Source: a virus. Taken from it: 22,409 nucleotides of DNA. Numbering within the stretch: position 1 is the stretch's first letter; each line of letters starts with the position of its first letter. Location of the stretch: the IMG/VR virus record IMGVR_UViG_3300005253_000830, positions 1 through 22,409 of that record. One strand, given 5' to 3'. Made by a program: the position numbers and the translations under genes. Below are positions 3,696-18,210 of the stretch, one piece after another. The notes beneath the pieces are model-generated. The model was not told where the DNA came from. It saw only the letters and a list, made by a program, of their open reading frames with translations, and ran no database searches.

Positions 3696-3874
3696 TATTC
3701 CTCCTCAAAATTGCGATTGAAAAGAGCAGCGATCACACCGAGTGCTGCCCAAAAAACGGGTACCCCCACCAGGTACACGAGAGGATCCAGACCTCGAACC
3801 GCGAACAGGATGTACAGCGGGAAGAGCACCAGCAGTGTGAATGCCACGTGCTGAACAACCAGACTAACTCTCAT
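3695..3874 (-). CDS. Small two-helix membrane protein (59 aa)
   Basis: A 59-residue protein with two clear hydrophobic segments: about 9-26 (HVAFTLLVLFPLYILFAV) and about 34-54 (YLVGVPVFWAALGVIAALF). They are joined by a short RGLDPL loop, and the protein ends in NRNFEEE. The start is well supported: AAGGAGGCAAGTC precedes the ATG, the ATG overlaps the upstream TGA (ATGA), and the stop overlaps the portal ATG (TAATG). It is co-transcribed with the portal gene. Two-helix hairpin topology with a charged tail is compatible with a holin or a membrane-associated accessory, but nothing in the sequence proves lysis function and there is no endolysin in the window. Confidence 0.8.
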   Translation of the reverse strand: MRVSLVVQHVAFTLLVLFPLYILFAVRGLDPLVYLVGVPVFWAALGVIAALFNRNFEEE

Positions 3875-4092
3875 GACTTGCCTCCTTGATGCATCCAGTC
3901 CGGGAACTCGTACAGCCCCGGAGCCCAGTAGGTCTCAGCACACCGGGCACAATCCACGCTCTGTCGCTTATCTCTTATGGCCACATACATATGGGTAGGG
4001 TGCGCGAAAACGTGTCCGTACCGCGAGCAGAAGAACATACAGTTCCACGCCCACGTCAGCTCTCGAAGTTTGAACTCCAGCCAGCTATTCAT
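3871..4092 (-). CDS. Small Cys-rich protein, unknown function
   Basis: A 73-residue protein with aromatic and cysteine-rich composition. It has CMFFC near residue 18 and CARC near residue 48, with histidines at HVFAHPTH and WMH. The paired cysteines suggest a small zinc-binding fold, though the spacing CxxxC is unusual for a classic ribbon. Its ATG sits inside the end of the upstream 49-residue membrane protein gene, and its TGA overlaps the next ATG (ATGA). It is therefore part of a translationally coupled run of very small genes between the DPPY methyltransferase and the portal. I do not recognise a family. Confidence 0.6.
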   Translation of the reverse strand: MNSWLEFKLRELTWAWNCMFFCSRYGHVFAHPTHMYVAIRDKRQSVDCARCAETYWAPGLYEFPDWMHQGGKS

Positions 4093-4234
4093 CGTTGTCC
4101 CCCATTATCCACTTCCTCGAGCGTCGAATATCAAAGTACAGAAACACACCTAAGAACACCATGAAACCAGCAATCACAGGGAATGCCTCAGGACAGTTGC
4201 AGTTACTTATCGCCATCCAAATCAACGTTGGCAT
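4085..4234 (-). CDS. Very small single-pass membrane protein (49 aa)
   Basis: A 49-residue protein with an N-terminal CNC motif, one hydrophobic helix (about 16-33, FPVIAGFMVFLGVFLYF) and a basic RRSRK segment after it, predicting an N-out, C-in orientation. The start has an excellent site, AAGGAGGCAAG, directly before the ATG. The same 11 bases also precede the 59-residue membrane protein at 3874. The stop (TAG) lies 5 bases inside the following gene. The function is unknown; it is the first gene of the small-protein run leading to the portal. Confidence 0.75.
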   Translation of the reverse strand: MPTLIWMAISNCNCPEAFPVIAGFMVFLGVFLYFDIRRSRKWIMGDNDE

Positions 4235-4291
4235 CTTGCCTCCTTATGTTCCCGAAAGTTCATAAACGTAAATTGAAGTACATATAATTGC

Positions 4292-4649
4292 GAGTAGGCA
4301 GGCAGGCTACCTAGTTGACCGCGAATCGATCTACAGTTTTTCCAGACTCACTCATTACATACACGTTTGCCGGGGAACGTATAATCACATCCTGAGCGGA
4401 CACATCTCCCCAGTCTAAGCGCAGAATTACCACGCCGTACTTCAACTCATCGTTACCCTCAGCGACATCCACATCAAAGCTAGACACGAACCCATCGGTG
4501 ATTTCTATATCTAGGCCGTTTGGAGATTCCGGATGTCGAATTACGTAGCGTTTGCATTCTAGCATTCGCTCGTTGTTGACGTTACTTCCTCTTGGTACGA
4601 TCTTCAAAAACATATCTTTCTCCCTTTCTGTCTATCTGCCTGCCTACTC
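4292..4649. repeat. Perfect 14-bp inverted repeats flanking a small gene
   Basis: GAGTAGGCAGGCAG at 4292-4305 and its exact reverse complement at 4636-4649 bracket the 100-codon gene at 4311-4613. There is no obvious target duplication outside the arms and no transposase inside. It could be the termini of a small gene cassette, or a structure pairing the two ends of the transcript. Confidence 0.6.
4311..4613 (-). CDS. Hypothetical protein between inverted repeats (100 aa)
   Basis: A 100-residue acidic, beta-rich protein with segments YVIRHP, GLDIEITDGFVSSFDVDV, YGVVILRLDW and DVIIRSP, and no membrane segment. The start follows AAGGGAGAAAGAT, a good ribosome binding site. The gene is separated from its neighbours by non-coding DNA on both sides, unlike the overlapping genes around it, and is bracketed by a perfect 14-bp inverted repeat. 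It appears more A+T-rich than the portal and terminase genes (by eye, not computed). This suggests a stand-alone accessory gene (a moron-like cassette). I do not recognise the family. Confidence 0.65.
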   Translation of the reverse strand: MFLKIVPRGSNVNNERMLECKRYVIRHPESPNGLDIEITDGFVSSFDVDVAEGNDELKYGVVILRLDWGDVSAQDVIIRSPANVYVMSESGKTVDRFAVN

Positions 4650-4681
4650 TTCTGCCACACCTCAGTCCCATGTTCAGTGTG

Positions 4682-4765
4682 ATCACGCGCAGTGATACGA
4701 AGCCCTGCTTAGGGGGCCAGGATTCCCACCTATACAGGCAGTTTCCTGGGCCTGCGCTGGTGCGC
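4682..4765. ncRNA. Tandem hairpin block (structured non-coding region)
   Basis: Four hairpins stand almost back to back: ATCAC/GTGAT at 4682-4696, CCCT/AGGG with a 4-base loop at 4703-4714, GGCCAGGA/TCCTGGGCC (one bulge, 21-base loop) at 4715-4752, and GCGC/GCGC with a TGGT loop at 4754-4765. None is followed by a long T run on either strand, so they are not classic terminators. They lie directly 3' (minus strand) of the tRNA-like element and before the 100-residue gene. Likely a structured RNA or processing region; its identity is unknown. Confidence 0.5.
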
Positions 4766-4777
4766 TGTCTTACACAA

Positions 4778-4881
4778 TGGACCCGGTGGGATTTGAACCC
4801 ACATGTCCTCGGCGTGCCGTTGATCATCTTACTACCGGAAGCGGTCACCGCCGTAGAGGAGCTCTCCTAAGTATCGGGCCC
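4778..4881 (-). tRNA. tRNA-like element of unusual length (104 nt), anticodon unresolved
   Basis: On the minus strand the 3' part has a canonical T-arm: stem GTGGG/CCCAC around the loop TTCAAAT, matching the TTCRANY consensus. The 3' strand CGGGTCC then pairs with GGGCCCG at the 5' end (seven pairs, one G-U). It begins 8 bases after the stop codon of the DPPY methyltransferase. Acceptor and T-arm pairing together are unlikely by chance. The total is 104 nt, however, about 28 more than a normal tRNA, and I find no 5-bp anticodon stem with a 7-base loop. A possible D-arm (CTT-CCGGTAGT-AAG) sits displaced by about 30 nt. It could be a tRNA with an insertion or intron, a degenerate tRNA, or a tRNA mimic. 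No CCA is encoded. Confidence 0.5.
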
Positions 4882-4889
4882 CACTTAGA

Positions 4890-6335
4890 TTATACCTCTT
4901 CCTCCACAGCGCTGTGAGCCAGCCGTGCCTCCGCTATCGCGGTGTACTGTGCCTCTGCCTCGATGCCAACGACTTCATCCCACCCAGCCCGGGCAGCGCC
5001 GATCATCTCGCTACCACTACCAGAGAACGGCACCAGCATGCGTCGGCTTCGGCCTTCCAGCTCAGGTGGCAGGCTGAGCAGTGCTAGGTAAGTGAGCAGC
5101 TTGATAGGCTTGACCGTGGGATGAATGCACCCCTGGGCACGCTGCTTCTTGTCCAGCTGTTCCCATTCGATCTTACTGACCTGTTTGAATCCCTTGTCCA
5201 CACGCTGCCAGTAGAAGTCCTCCAGACCGGCGTCCTTCTCGGATCGACTGGCCTTGGCGCAGTAAAAGAAGCGGGATGGTCCTCCAGTGTCTTTATAGCC
5301 TTCGTCAGTATTGTTGGCTGTCCAACCGTGGATTCCGTAAAAACCTTGAATATCGTGTTTCTTGCGAGTTGTTCTAAAGCTACTAGAAAGCTCCCCCACC
5401 TGATCATCCAACTGCCGCACTGGGCAACCTGGAACACATGCCCAGCGTGCATCGCCCGCCTGCACACACTCCTCATGGTGGGTGAGCATCAGGTTGGCAG
5501 GCCATCGGCCGTTCGGAGCTGGAGACGCGCGCTCTTCACTTGACCGCTCATCACTTAATTTGGCTTGGTTGTATGTTGTTTTGCCTACTTTAGAAGAGTG
5601 CGGAGTCATTCGTTCTTCAGGTTCATCATGGCTAATTCGGGAACCATCAATATTCAATGCCCCAGATCCAAACTCCACCGCCAGCTGTGCGAAGGTGTGT
5701 TTGCCGCGGGGCGCCCGGCACAGGAACACGGGTTCCCAGGCTGGCTTGAGCGCGGTGCCGTAGCTGCCCCAAACCTCGGACTCGAGAGTAACGGGTTTCG
5801 TTTCATCGTACTCTGGCTTGAACTCACCAAGGCTCTCAGTGTCGGAACTGGCCGCGCCTTTGGCTTTGCCTGTAACCTCGCGCTCCACTCCAGCTTCCTT
5901 GTCCATTCCCTTGCTTATATTATGCGATTTTGGGAATCCTTGACCTTGCAGCCACATCAAGCAGTCGACGATCTCAAACCCCCCAGTCTCAAGCCCCACG
6001 CCGAGGTGGTGGAAGGTCCGCGTGCCACCGAAGAACATGCACACCGCACCTGGGTACAGAGCCTTCTCGATCAGCAGGGCTGACCACTCAGCAATCCATT
6101 CTTGGTAGTGCTGCAGGCTTTCGAACCCATCCCACTTCTGACCCATGAACCCACCTGACAAGCGAGCATACCGCCCATCGCTGCCTTCCTTAGCGGGCGC
6201 ACTGCCCTTCTTGCCAAATCGCTTGGTGATTGAGATTAGTGCATAGGGTGGATCTGCTAGAACTGCGTGAAACTTCTCCCCATCATAATTGGTCAACCAC
6301 TCAACGAGCTCTGCTTGCTCTATGCTCCATCTCAT
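4890..6335 (-). CDS. DNA methyltransferase, DPPY type (N6-adenine/N4-cytosine, beta-type order)
   Basis: A 481-residue protein of the N6_N4_Mtase family (PF01555). The catalytic motif DPPY is at residues 28-31. The SAM-binding motif FSGSGSE is near residue 437, followed by VVGIEAEAQY, so the catalytic motif precedes the SAM motif, as in beta-class enzymes. HPTVKP just before the SAM motif is another family signature. The middle (about 140-400) is a long insertion with WGSYGTALKPAWEPVFLCRAP and FFYCAKASRSEKDAGLE, likely target recognition. DPPY favours adenine-N6 methylation. The start was taken at the ATG whose TGA overlap with the upstream gene is ATGA, with AAGG 7 bases before, rather than 27 bases upstream at 6362. 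Confidence 0.9.
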   Translation of the reverse strand: MRWSIEQAELVEWLTNYDGEKFHAVLADPPYALISITKRFGKKGSAPAKEGSDGRYARLSGGFMGQKWDGFESLQHYQEWIAEWSALLIEKALYPGAVCMFFGGTRTFHHLGVGLETGGFEIVDCLMWLQGQGFPKSHNISKGMDKEAGVEREVTGKAKGAASSDTESLGEFKPEYDETKPVTLESEVWGSYGTALKPAWEPVFLCRAPRGKHTFAQLAVEFGSGALNIDGSRISHDEPEERMTPHSSKVGKTTYNQAKLSDERSSEERASPAPNGRWPANLMLTHHEECVQAGDARWACVPGCPVRQLDDQVGELSSSFRTTRKKHDIQGFYGIHGWTANNTDEGYKDTGGPSRFFYCAKASRSEKDAGLEDFYWQRVDKGFKQVSKIEWEQLDKKQRAQGCIHPTVKPIKLLTYLALLSLPPELEGRSRRMLVPFSGSGSEMIGAARAGWDEVVGIEAEAQYTAIAEARLAHSAVEEEV

Positions 6336-6751
6336 TGGGCGGCCTTCAATGCGGCACGACATATCGCGAGAGGGGCGGTATCTGCCTCCACGAAGTCAGC
6401 GAAGTCTCCTCTCCAAATTGGGCTTCCTCCCGAGTTGTATTCCTCTGCAATAGTCACGCTCCAGGTTATTTGAGGAATCATGCCCGGACCCAAGGACTCG
6501 TCAATCGTATTTATTTCAATCAGCCATGTCTCCAGAATTCGCCCCACCACCTCCCATGCTGCTGCTATGTCGGTGCTGTAGCGAGAAGGGAACGCGGGGT
6601 TACCATCTGAAAGTTCAACTCCTCTACCCCTGCCGTCTTCCATGATGCCACCCACTATGCGCCACTCCATCACAGCCTCAGCCACCCACGTATCCAGACA
6701 CCGGTTGGCCTCGTGTTCGTCTATCTCAGTCTCGCAATGTGGACATTTCAT
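6332..6751 (-). CDS. Zinc-ribbon plus phage ABA-sandwich domain protein
   Basis: The protein has 139 residues from the ATG at 6751, chosen because GGAGGTAAGG precedes it directly; a start at 6763 is also open. The N-terminus MKCPHCETEI supplies one CxxC knuckle. The body matches the conserved phage ABA-sandwich domain pattern (PF18066): DTWVAEAVMEW, then SRYSTDIAAAWEVV, then EADTAPLAICRAALKA. These proteins are widespread in phages and their role is unknown. It overlaps the terminase gene end and the methyltransferase start, so it is part of the packaging operon. Domain recognition is from memory of the motif pattern. Confidence 0.78.
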   Translation of the reverse strand: MKCPHCETEIDEHEANRCLDTWVAEAVMEWRIVGGIMEDGRGRGVELSDGNPAFPSRYSTDIAAAWEVVGRILETWLIEINTIDESLGPGMIPQITWSVTIAEEYNSGGSPIWRGDFADFVEADTAPLAICRAALKAAQ

Positions 6752-8372
6752 CCTTACCTCCATATCCCTGCTCCCCCAACCATGCCATCATATCATACTG
6801 CCCGTAGCGGAACAGCGCTAGCGCTACTGCGTCGCCGGCATCTGGTGACCTGCCGATGCGCTTCTTTATCTGGGCCTTGACCTCTAGCCTGATCTTGCCA
6901 GCGACAGGTCTGTAACGTGGGGCAGCTAAATCCGCTATGAGTTCGGGGTCGTCCGGGATCATAAGGACGCCATCTTCCATCATCTCCCGGATGTTCCAGT
7001 AGGCCTCGGCCCGAGCGTTGCCCAGCAGTAAGACGCCGGACTTGTCGGTGGCCTCGGACTTTCCCCCAAAGTTCACCGCCCGTATGTTGGCGCCGGTAAG
7101 CGTCTCCCTGGCCGCGTCGACCACGGCCCCACCAACACCGATAGCGTCGATGTTCACCTGCACACCCTTCAAGCCGAGGGGTAGCATCATGTTGACTACG
7201 CTCGCCCCGTCCGGCGTCTCCTTGCCTGGCCTCTTGACAAGCTCCGCAATGTACAGACCCTCATGGAGGGGAGCCAGCACCGAATCATCCTCGCCACCTC
7301 GTGCCACGTCAACGCCCAGCGCTATGAGCTTACCGGGGTCGAGCCGCTTGTCCGTTGCCTCCACCCACCGGGCGATCGACTCGTAGATAAGCCGGGTTGG
7401 GATCACCTGATAGGCATCATCCTCAGCACCGGCATCCCAGTCACCTGCTAACAACTGTGAGCGTAGAGGCTCCGGCAGCGCTTGCAGCATTGAGAGGTAC
7501 TTGGTGTCGTGCGAGTAGTACGGGTTGTCCTGAACACCGGCCGGTATGAACGTACGGGACACCGGATACACCCACTCGCCTGCTACTTTGACACGGGGCG
7601 CCTGCTCCATCGCTGAAGCGTACGCGCCAGTACGCTCCTCATCTGTTGCGTCTGGGTCGTTGAGCGTGTCCAGCAGGTCGTAGGTCTGGATTCGGGGGCC
7701 GGGCACTTCCTTGTCCTTGCCCTCCTCATCTGTGATGAACCACCGCAGCTCCCCAGGCAGTGCTGGGTCGGGGTGCTTCTTGTCCACCCATGGTGCCCAT
7801 CGCTTCTTTACCCAGTAGCCCTCGGCCGTAGGCGGCGGGTTGGACGCACCAACGATGCGCGTGCGTTGGAGCGGATCTGCAGTACGCAGCCAGCCGGTCA
7901 GGTACTTATATTGAAATTCAGTGAAGTGGGTGAGCTCGTCAAAGGCAACGAGGTCGTGTGGACGGCCCTGGTACTTCTGGACGTCGAGGTTATACTGGGC
8001 GGCTCCGAACTCGATCTTCCGCTTGCCCGGCACCTTGTACCAGATCATCTTGCCGGAGTTGAAATTCGCTCCGTTCTTTACCTCCGGGATGATCTCCCTC
8101 GACCGTGACACCAGCGCCTCGAGCTGGGGAAACATCCGCCTGAAGATTATGGACACCTGGTGCTTGGTTGCTGCCAGGCCCAACAGTAGGTCGGACTTCC
8201 CTCCACCCGCGGCACCGCCGTACAACAGCTCAGTCGCAGTGCAGATGTAGGCCGCCTGCTGAGGTTTATTATCCGGGTGAGGGATCCACAGGGCGGCCAT
8301 TGTCGGCGCCTGCAGTGTTTGGTCGATCGGTAGGGTCGGCGTTGGGGATAGCTGTGTCAACTGAGTCTCCAT
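6726..8372 (-). CDS. terL: Terminase large subunit (packaging ATPase and nuclease)
   Basis: A 548-residue protein with a complete set of terminase motifs. Walker A is GGAAGGGKS at 52-60, Walker B LVAFDE at 141-146, and the coupling motif GASNPP at 175-180. The RNase H-like nuclease carries acidic positions in GVDVARGGEDDS (about 353-364), VNIDAIGVGG (about 407-415) and SPDAGDAVALALF near the C-terminus. It cuts concatemeric DNA and drives it through the portal. The start is ambiguous: the ATG at 8372 lies just after GAGG and overlaps the small-subunit gene by 104 bases, while MAALWIP at 8300 would give a smaller overlap but has no clear binding site. All catalytic parts are retained with either start. 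Confidence 0.95.
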   Translation of the reverse strand: METQLTQLSPTPTLPIDQTLQAPTMAALWIPHPDNKPQQAAYICTATELLYGGAAGGGKSDLLLGLAATKHQVSIIFRRMFPQLEALVSRSREIIPEVKNGANFNSGKMIWYKVPGKRKIEFGAAQYNLDVQKYQGRPHDLVAFDELTHFTEFQYKYLTGWLRTADPLQRTRIVGASNPPPTAEGYWVKKRWAPWVDKKHPDPALPGELRWFITDEEGKDKEVPGPRIQTYDLLDTLNDPDATDEERTGAYASAMEQAPRVKVAGEWVYPVSRTFIPAGVQDNPYYSHDTKYLSMLQALPEPLRSQLLAGDWDAGAEDDAYQVIPTRLIYESIARWVEATDKRLDPGKLIALGVDVARGGEDDSVLAPLHEGLYIAELVKRPGKETPDGASVVNMMLPLGLKGVQVNIDAIGVGGAVVDAARETLTGANIRAVNFGGKSEATDKSGVLLLGNARAEAYWNIREMMEDGVLMIPDDPELIADLAAPRYRPVAGKIRLEVKAQIKKRIGRSPDAGDAVALALFRYGQYDMMAWLGEQGYGGKDEMSTLRD

Positions 8373-16327: not shown

Positions 16328-16364
16328 CGGATCTCTGTCCTGTTGGAAAAGAGCAGGGACTATA

Positions 16365-16643
16365 ATGTCTATTACAGAACTGATCGAAGGCGCCAAGCAG
16401 GTCTATGATGTGGGCGGTGTTGGCTGCTGCCTCCATATAGTCCTAGATGATGGGAACCTCAACGATGGCGACGTGGACTTCTGCATACGGAGGGCCGAGG
16501 ACCATGGACACGAGACTTGCAAGAAGTTTGCGGTGCGTTTGCGCGCTGAGTCTTTAGAAGTTCGCGAGCAATTGTACGAACGATACGATGAGTACTACAC
16601 GGGAACGGAAAGTCTGATACAAAAACTATGGAGATCAAAATGA
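16365..16643 (+). CDS. Conserved phage hypothetical protein (92 aa)
   Basis: A 92-residue protein with GGVGCCLHIVLDDGNLNDGD followed by CIRRAEDHGHETCKK. I recall this block from many phage hypothetical proteins in which a His-containing turn and two Cys are conserved; the function is unknown. AGGGACTATA precedes the ATG. The first codons (MSITEL) are nearly copied at 18178 and 17912. Its TGA overlaps the next start (ATGA). Confidence 0.72.
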   Translation: MSITELIEGAKQVYDVGGVGCCLHIVLDDGNLNDGDVDFCIRRAEDHGHETCKKFAVRLRAESLEVREQLYERYDEYYTGTESLIQKLWRSK

Positions 16644-16999
16644 CACAGCTGGACATACAAGAACTGATCGAGTACATCAAATGGCTCGGTGAAGCGGCCG
16701 TGCAGAGAGGGTTCGAACTGGCGATGCTTGAGGTGCAGGTGCGGATCTTCCAGCACTTTATATGGCTTGGTGTTTCGTTCGTTGCTCTAGTTGTCGCGGC
16801 TCTACTAGCGAGAGGGGCGCTGAGACACGAGCCCGCGAACATATACGATAACAAGGCGTTTTCTTTTTGGATGAGCGCCGGCATAGTTGGTTTGGTTGGC
16901 GGCGTGGGTCTATTCGCGGCCGTATCAGGACTCATTGGCTACGTCATGAACCCAGAGTGGCGAGCGATTGAGATTATCATGCAAGCGGTGGGTGGATAG
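16640..16999 (+). CDS. Two-helix membrane protein with an N-terminal amphipathic helix (119 aa)
   Basis: A 119-residue protein. An amphipathic helix (about 3-35) is followed by two hydrophobic spans: about 41-62 (FIWLGVSFVALVVAALLARG) and about 83-106 (SAGIVGLVGGVGLFAAVSG), separated by a polar loop RHEPANIYDNKAFSF. The ATG at 16640 is chosen over 16628 because GGAGATCAAA directly precedes it and it overlaps the upstream TGA. This could be a holin-like or phage-exclusion membrane protein; nothing proves either. Confidence 0.72.
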   Translation: MTQLDIQELIEYIKWLGEAAVQRGFELAMLEVQVRIFQHFIWLGVSFVALVVAALLARGALRHEPANIYDNKAFSFWMSAGIVGLVGGVGLFAAVSGLIGYVMNPEWRAIEIIMQAVGG

Positions 17000-17006
17000 G
17001 GAGATC

Positions 17007-17912
17007 ATGAGTAAGATCAGATCGTACAGCTCACCATTGAACCTCGGCCACGCGGGGTTGAAGCAATTCTGGGGTGACGAACCCGTGACCGCCACGGAGA
17101 AGATCGACGGGTCGCAGTTTAGCTTCGCGCTCATGGAAGGCGAGCTGGCGTGTCGTTCGCGTAACGCGCAGATCGACCTGGAGGATCCTGGGATGTTCAA
17201 GTTAGGCGTTCAAACTGTGCTGGACATCCACCAGCAGGGACTTCTGCACGAGGGGTGGGTCTATCGCGGCGAATACTTATCCAAGCCCGAGCACAACACC
17301 ATGGCGTACGATCGGGTGCCGCGCGGGAACATCATGCTGTTCGACATTGACCGCGGGGACCAAGACTACTTAGCGAGTTGGGCCATGCTAGAAAGCGAGG
17401 CCAACTTTTTGGATCTGGAGTGCGTGCCCAGGTTGATCACGTTCAACACTAAGCCCACCATCGCAGAGGTCACCGCTCTGCTAGATGTGGAGAGTGTGCT
17501 GGGTGGCGGAAAGATCGAGGGCCTTGTGCTCAAGAACTACAGCGCGTTCGGTCGCGACGGCAAGGTGCTGATGGCGAAGATGGTCTCCAAGGATTTTAGG
17601 GAGCGGCACAGCAAGGGCTGGAAGGAGCGCAACCCTGGACAGGGTGACTTCATAGTTCAGCTCACTCAAGGACTTGCGACTGAGGCGCGGTGGATGAAGG
17701 CCGTTCAGCACTTGCGCGAGGCGGGTGAGCTCGAGGGAGTGCCTCAGGACATCCCATTGGTGATGCGCGAGATTGTGCGGGACGTCGAGGAGGAGCACGC
17801 GGGTGAGGTGCGTGACGAGCTGTTCGCCCACTTCTGGCCCCAGATCAAGCGGGGCGTGAACCGGGGCGCGGCGGAGTGGTACAAGGCCCTGCTGGCAGAG
17901 GAGAGTTTGTAG
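17007..17912 (+). CDS. RNA ligase, Rnl2-like nucleotidyltransferase
   Basis: A 301-residue protein with all nucleotidyltransferase motifs of ATP-dependent RNA ligases (PF09414 type): motif I EKIDGSQ with the adenylated lysine K32; CRSRN (49-53); motif III WVYRGEYL (84-91); motif IIIa IMLFDI (109-114); motif IV IEGLVLKN (170-177); and motif V LMAKMVSKDFRE (188-199) with K191/K195. A helical C-terminal domain follows (about 210-301). It would seal broken RNA, for instance tRNA cut by a host defence. No polynucleotide kinase or phosphatase is in the window. The ATG at 17007 follows AGGGAGATC. The next gene overlaps the stop (TAGTG). Confidence 0.9.
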   Translation: MSKIRSYSSPLNLGHAGLKQFWGDEPVTATEKIDGSQFSFALMEGELACRSRNAQIDLEDPGMFKLGVQTVLDIHQQGLLHEGWVYRGEYLSKPEHNTMAYDRVPRGNIMLFDIDRGDQDYLASWAMLESEANFLDLECVPRLITFNTKPTIAEVTALLDVESVLGGGKIEGLVLKNYSAFGRDGKVLMAKMVSKDFRERHSKGWKERNPGQGDFIVQLTQGLATEARWMKAVQHLREAGELEGVPQDIPLVMREIVRDVEEEHAGEVRDELFAHFWPQIKRGVNRGAAEWYKALLAEESL

Positions 17913-18178
17913 TGTCTATTACATATATTCAATCTTTCACGTTCGTTGGCTCCCCGACGTACGGCATTGCTGCCAAGGAGGGCAACGAGTTCACTCTTTG
18001 GTGGAACGGGTGCAAGTTTGACCACGCGTTCACTCTTGAGGGGGCTAGGCACAAGATGTTCGCCAAGCTCAACAAGGATATTCAAAAGCATCTAAGAGGT
18101 GGTCGTGATAGCGTGCGAGATCTTGAGATAGCTCTATCAAAGCTCAACGCTGGTGGGCTAGATTTGTTGGGACTATAA
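17912..18178 (+). CDS. Hypothetical protein (88 aa)
   Basis: An 88-residue protein with a GTG start overlapping the ligase stop (TAGTG) and GAGGAGAG upstream. A beta-type N-terminus (ITYIQSFTFVGSP and NEFTLWWNGCKF) is followed by a helical, basic middle (ARHKMFAKLNKDIQKHLRGG) and a C-terminal helix. It opens MSITYIQ, like the gene at 16365. Coupled to the RNA ligase, so perhaps expressed as its accessory. No family known to me. Confidence 0.68.
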   Translation: MSITYIQSFTFVGSPTYGIAAKEGNEFTLWWNGCKFDHAFTLEGARHKMFAKLNKDIQKHLRGGRDSVRDLEIALSKLNAGGLDLLGL

Positions 18179-18210
18179 TGACCATTATAGAACTAAGGAG
18201 GGAAGCATGA
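18178..18210 (+). other. Minicistron resembling the start of the gene at 16365
   Basis: Ten codons (MTIIELRREA) between the TAA of one gene and the ATG of the next, overlapping both. The DNA around its start repeats GGGACTATAATG-x3-ATTA-x-AGAACT, seen at 16356. It contains AAGGAGGG, the binding site for the next gene. Probably a remnant of a duplicated gene start, or a coupling leader. Confidence 0.4.

Follow-up and report, generated by a model that had tools for sequence, protein, structure and literature searches.

Background

Among the closest described counterparts of the element analysed here are isolated 3' ends of alanine-type genes in phage genomes and the tRNA-like domain of tmRNA. 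The attP core of mycobacteriophage Ms6 comprises 26 nt (AGGGGTTCGAATCCCCTTAGCTCCAC) from the same part of tRNA-Ala (PMC1762012). A similar unannotated segment was observed in Pseudomonas phage BR133a (L177 2001-2180), which matches the 3' end of ssrA and its downstream flank with 90% identity over 176 nt and likely represents an attachment site. The tRNA-like domain of tmRNA (RF00023) combines an acceptor stem and T-arm with G3:U70 and has no anticodon arm. G1-C72, G2-C71, G3:U70, and A73 form the alanine identity set, with G3:U70 and A73 as its classical determinants (PMC9976931). Phage tRNAs and anticodon-targeting defences are the subject of another study (PMC10264068).

The window, i.e., the whole stretch analysed, is a 22,409-nt IMG/VR virus fragment of an incomplete genome. 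The element is situated in a gap of 276 nt between a DNA methyltransferase gene (4890-6362, minus strand) and a 100-codon ORF (4311-4613, minus strand). Like the Ms6 core and the BR133a segment, it contains an alanine-type T-arm and acceptor 3' strand within a phage genome, but it additionally has a matching acceptor 5' strand and no integrase was found. Acceptor stem, T-arm, G3:U70, and the absence of an anticodon arm are shared with tmRNA, whereas the length of 104 nt and the lack of a tag reading frame, of pseudoknots, and of GGATTCGAC set the element apart. Its features are as follows.

4778..4881, minus strand: whole tRNA-like unit, 104 nt, from acceptor 5' strand to A73; matched over the full RF00005 model
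4786..4802, minus strand: T-arm GTGGG-TTCAAAT-CCCAC with 5-bp T-stem and TTCAAAT loop; identical in tRNA-Ala and tmRNA genes
4778..4785, minus strand: acceptor 3' strand CGGGTCC (4779-4785), which carries U70, and A73 (4778)
4875..4881, minus strand: putative acceptor 5' strand GGGCCCG, single copy in the window; chance of a comparable partner 1.9-6.6%
4803..4874, minus strand: middle part without recognisable D arm or anticodon arm
4889..4894, minus strand: TATAAT, possible -10 box
4682..4765, minus strand: four tandem hairpins claimed earlier, unsupported as a feature

The Acceptor Stem and T-Arm

From 4802 to 4778 the minus strand reads GTGGGTTCAAATCCCACCGGGTCCA and thus comprises the T-arm, the 7-nt acceptor strand, and A73. 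No CCA is encoded after A73, where ATTG comes next. The acceptor stem of 7 bp consists of GGGCCCG (4881-4875) and CGGGTCC (4785-4779) with one G-U pair at position 3:70. Hence, a T-arm with canonical loop and a 7-bp acceptor stem are present as in a tRNA, the 5' partner having a chance of 2-7%. Markov shuffling of the window would produce 0.01 strict T-arms per shuffle on average, and T-arm plus acceptor were observed in none of 200 window shuffles; the canonical T-arm and seven-pair acceptor stem enclosing 104 nt that had been read from the sequence in the earlier note were therefore borne out. Provided that the acceptor stem forms, 4875-4881 and 4778-4785 would present the alanine determinants G3:U70 and A73.

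The two acceptor strands differ in certainty. For the acceptor 3' strand as it stands, 1.9-3.3% of real window positions offer by chance a 7-bp partner in which 6 or more pairs are Watson-Crick, and a comparable partner occurs in 6.6% of composition-matched random sequence. The exact heptamer GGGCCCG occurs a single time when both window strands are counted, at the place expected for the acceptor 5' strand. The 5' partner is less certain than the 3' end and could be of chance origin (2-7%).

A scan of a prokaryote collection of 84,980 species returned the 25-mer (4802-4778) at 12 places. Inspection by eye and with ARAGORN showed most of them to be the 3' ends of archaeal tRNA-Ala genes, in addition to a tRNA-Ala gene of Microgenomates and a tmRNA gene of Lachnospiraceae. 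Due to these matches, the 3' end of the element is regarded as alanine-type tRNA/tmRNA sequence, and as in an attP core, a T-arm and acceptor 3' strand stand isolated and match a cellular tRNA or tmRNA gene without a mismatch. The 25-nt core was found in one copy only. The tRNA-Ala genes compared with the element (L057, L058, and L064 of archaea and CPR bacteria, and the intron-bearing L055, L056, L060, and L065) are identical to it in T-arm, GGGCCCG/CGGGTCC, G3:U70, and A73, whereas the element has neither D-arm nor anticodon arm and a middle without tRNA similarity. The tRNA-like part of the element is real. An archaeal host, as suggested by the 3'-end matches, was considered and rejected, since TATAAT elements and terminase relatives alike suggest a bacterium.

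The Middle Part and Its Fold

Similarity of positions 8-78 of the 104 nt to 63 tRNAs from the fetched loci is at chance level (p 0.24-0.48). ARAGORN, recommended in the earlier note as a check, calls no tRNA at the element, and removing any single segment of 18-44 nt from positions 8-78 never results in a called tRNA. In the controls to this test, which depends on what ARAGORN accepts as tRNA, shuffled middles were called in 35% and 251 calls were obtained from a genuine tRNA-Ala carrying an insert of 30 nt. Neither a D-arm nor an anticodon arm with U33 was found by hand, and a by-hand search for an archaeal bulge-helix-bulge arrangement failed as well. Thus, neither directly nor after intron removal do D-arm and anticodon arm appear, and the absence of a normal anticodon arm had been noticed correctly.

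On a covariance model built from 27 tRNAs the element reaches 13.8 bits, with the acceptor 5' strand unused in the match, compared to mostly 40-52 bits for intron-bearing archaeal tRNA-Ala controls with the same acceptor and T-arm. RF00005 covers the element over its full model with 25.1 bits, below the cut-off of 29, and RF00023 yields 23.3 bits, far below the cut-off of 47. A confident assignment to either Rfam family, which the earlier note had named as a refuting outcome, is thus lacking.

The fold of the 107-nt tRNA-like piece is marginal (z -1.44, 19 out of 200 shuffles as good). The whole block of 231 nt folds like its shuffles (z -0.47), the larger multibranch fold included. Folding predictions for a longer RNA pair the acceptor 5' strand with other sequence, so that formation of the acceptor stem is uncertain in a read-through transcript. 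The four near-adjacent hairpins proposed for 4682-4765 found no support, as the region 4660-4774 folds no better than shuffled sequence (z -0.01, 91 out of 200 shuffles as good). Similarly, the self-complementary pieces AGGA/TCCT and GCGG/CCGC, thought to replace the usual arms, find no support over chance. The description as a non-coding block needs the qualification that the region is weakly coding at best: the ORF at 4582-4848 scores just below the 95th percentile of non-coding frames and below the 5th percentile of genes, and due to this low codon score a protein-coding function is possible but unlikely.

Possible Promoter and Neighbouring Genes

The TATAAT at 4894-4889 would, if active as a -10 box, start an RNA at about 4882/4881, i.e., at the 5' end of the unit. 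Its -35 partner is weak (CTCACA with an 18-nt spacer), and nine exact copies of the hexamer occur on both window strands. Since it overlaps the stop codon of the methyltransferase gene and was noticed after the fact, it counts modestly. A terminator for the element was not found.

In the distant relative L128, which has a similar terminase, the portal gene follows approximately 95 nt after the terminase gene, whereas here approximately 3 kb of extra genes including the methyltransferase gene and the element are situated between both. These accessory genes between terL and portal (window 3696-6763) comprise an ORF with a Phage_ABA_S domain, the methyltransferase gene, and two small ORFs, and they are absent in distant relatives such as L128. 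The 100-codon ORF (4311-4613) is flanked by a perfect 14-nt inverted repeat, GAGTAGGCAGGCAG / CTGCCTGCCTACTC, at 4292-4305 and 4636-4649. A further repeat, GGACTATAATGnCnATTAnAGAACT, for which 0 occurrences are expected by chance, is located at 16357-16381 and 18170-18194. It lies at or immediately ahead of the starts of genes pointing rightward and probably represents a promoter or operator of early genes.

An RNA ligase gene, which had led to the idea of RNA repair or processing, is indeed present (16968-17912), but it lies 12 kb from the element on the other strand, and a link between both is unsupported.

Relatives of the Element

In the collections searched, the only copy of the element is the identical one on a second contig, L002, which differs from the window by one mismatch over 7,152 nt and belongs to the same virus. 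Searches with the methyltransferase, the terminase, the portal protein, and the 100-codon ORF returned either this virus or distant relatives without the element, and a pattern search with its 5' end returned unrelated sequence only. Both contigs end at the same base, window position 1. The match of L002 to the window terminates inside terL (L002 1-311 versus window 7153 onward). The first 311 nt of L002 contain a repeat-rich frame (TPR-like, by eye) that continues in frame into TerL from approximately residue 408 and has no phage match; the break represents either a chimeric contig or a real junction.

Origin and Possible Function

Considering that the acceptor half is kept and the decoding half is unrecognisable, the element most probably represents either a rearranged relic of a tRNA or a tRNA end that was borrowed. 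The weights given in the following are our judgement and were not computed. The best explanation, at a probability of roughly 0.45, is a rearranged gene of tRNA-Ala or tmRNA type of which the top half, acceptor stem and T-arm, survives. The 25-nt 3' end identical to tRNA-Ala and tmRNA genes is in agreement with this, as is the window's single GGGCCCG at the acceptor 5' place, the same heptamer being present in tRNA-Ala genes with this 3' end. Furthermore, RF00005 assigns 25.1 bits to the element versus 11.8 bits to the plain ssrA 3'-end fragment of phage BR133a, the TATAAT is positioned to start an RNA at the 5' end of the unit, and a window without integrase argues against an attachment site. 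On the other hand, the 5' partner could be due to chance (2-7%) and would, by the folding predictions for longer RNAs, pair with other sequence, the TATAAT is a post hoc observation overlapping a stop codon, and the fold of the 107-nt piece is marginal versus shuffles. Since the boundary between the perfect 3' end and the unrelated middle is too sharp for gradual decay, a single replacement event must be assumed.

A serious rival, absent from the readings of the earlier note, is a 3' end captured from a host tRNA-Ala or ssrA gene, i.e., an attP-type core, active or relic, next to which the acceptor 5' strand arose by chance. According to this possible but less probable explanation the core would have served a tyrosine integrase recombining in or near the T-loop. 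That the tRNA identity begins exactly at the T-stem and stops at A73 fits well, as does a middle that is not tRNA, and the 26-nt core of Ms6 in tRNA-Ala (PMC1762012) as well as the isolated ssrA 3' end of the same extent in BR133a are close precedents. Against this explanation, the site is situated between terminase and portal genes. Normally attP adjoins int, but tyrosine integrase and resolvase domains (PF00589, PF00239) had no match in the 22.4-kb fragment, which is part of an incomplete genome. Arm-type repeats and a second core copy, which would also be in line with an attachment site, were not found, and a chance 5' partner has to be assumed.

Doubtful in our view is a selected, anticodon-less tRNA-like RNA of approximately 104 nt that accepts alanine and has its own promoter, and as an RNA that would be neither tRNA nor tmRNA it is likewise improbable. 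Such an RNA might, for example, resist cleavage by anticodon nucleases or serve to mark processing in a (late) operon. A minihelix of acceptor and T-arm that is perfect and contains the alanine identity set, next to a body of entirely unrelated sequence, the TATAAT at the right distance, and the 276-nt gap with its weak coding signal speak for it; against it, no relative has the element, neither conservation nor covariation is shown, the fold is not clearly better than shuffles, and a terminator is missing. From the sequence, a new kind of RNA is not proven. A tmRNA reduced to its tRNA-like domain, with tag and pseudoknots lost, is very improbable, although RF00023 matches end to end (23.3 bits, E 1.5e-9), G3:U70 occurs without an anticodon arm, GGAC is located shortly before the T-arm, and a real tmRNA of Lachnospiraceae has the same 25-nt 3' end. 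Plain tRNAs, those of archaeal genomes included, reach 22-35 bits on RF00023, and the 23.3 bits are therefore no evidence for tmRNA. Moreover, the tag ORF, the pseudoknots, and the conserved GGATTCGAC after the acceptor are absent, and 17 gapped-pattern matches in viral contigs, none of which has the T-arm fold, were judged to be chance, leaving no other short element alike. Hardly credible at all is a functional intron-bearing tRNA, as proposed in the earlier note on account of canonical acceptor and T-arm in a unit approximately 28 nt too long. Introns do exist in archaeal tRNA-Ala genes that share these ends, but no single excision yields a tRNA, 13.8 bits stand against mostly 40-52 bits of the intron-bearing controls, D-arm and anticodon arm with U33 were missing by hand, and the host, to judge from TATAAT elements and terminase relatives, is probably bacterial; this candidate was rejected. 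The decayed tRNA and the tRNA mimic of that note both stay as readings, to which the alanine pair G3:U70 with A73 is added.

In case of a rearranged tRNA-Ala- or tmRNA-type gene, the D and anticodon half would have been replaced or lost, so that the RNA could not decode. Transcription might start from the upstream TATAAT or proceed along with the gene row from methyltransferase to portal. Enzymes of tRNA processing could still cleave the acceptor/T-arm minihelix, which may be charged with alanine after CCA addition; because G3:U70 with A73 is the classical alanine identity, charging is conceivable for a transcribed RNA to which CCA has been added. Most likely the element is a relic that serves at most as a processing point between the methyltransferase gene and the downstream genes.

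Should the element prove to be no more than a relic or a fragment of an attachment site, phage capture of tRNAs would have left an ordinary trace here. An expressed and charged RNA would add to tmRNA a second class of RNAs that accept alanine and have no anticodon, in a phage with an RNA ligase gene of its own, and would bear on why phages carry tRNA-like genes.

Other Phage RNAs

A viral contig with a related methyltransferase gene (L091 751-1096, IMGVR_UViG_3300025322_000223) encodes a full tmRNA with 56.8 bits on RF00023. In Streptomyces phage Jollison, an unannotated, non-canonical tRNA-like gene (74359-74435; L183 approximately 953-1029) is located between a nucleotidyl transferase gene and an FtsK-like gene. 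As is the case for the element, this phage unit was missed by ARAGORN and annotators, but unlike the element it appears to keep an anticodon arm and with 30.3 bits exceeds the RF00005 cut-off. Similar unannotated tRNA-like matches occur in related Streptomyces phages.
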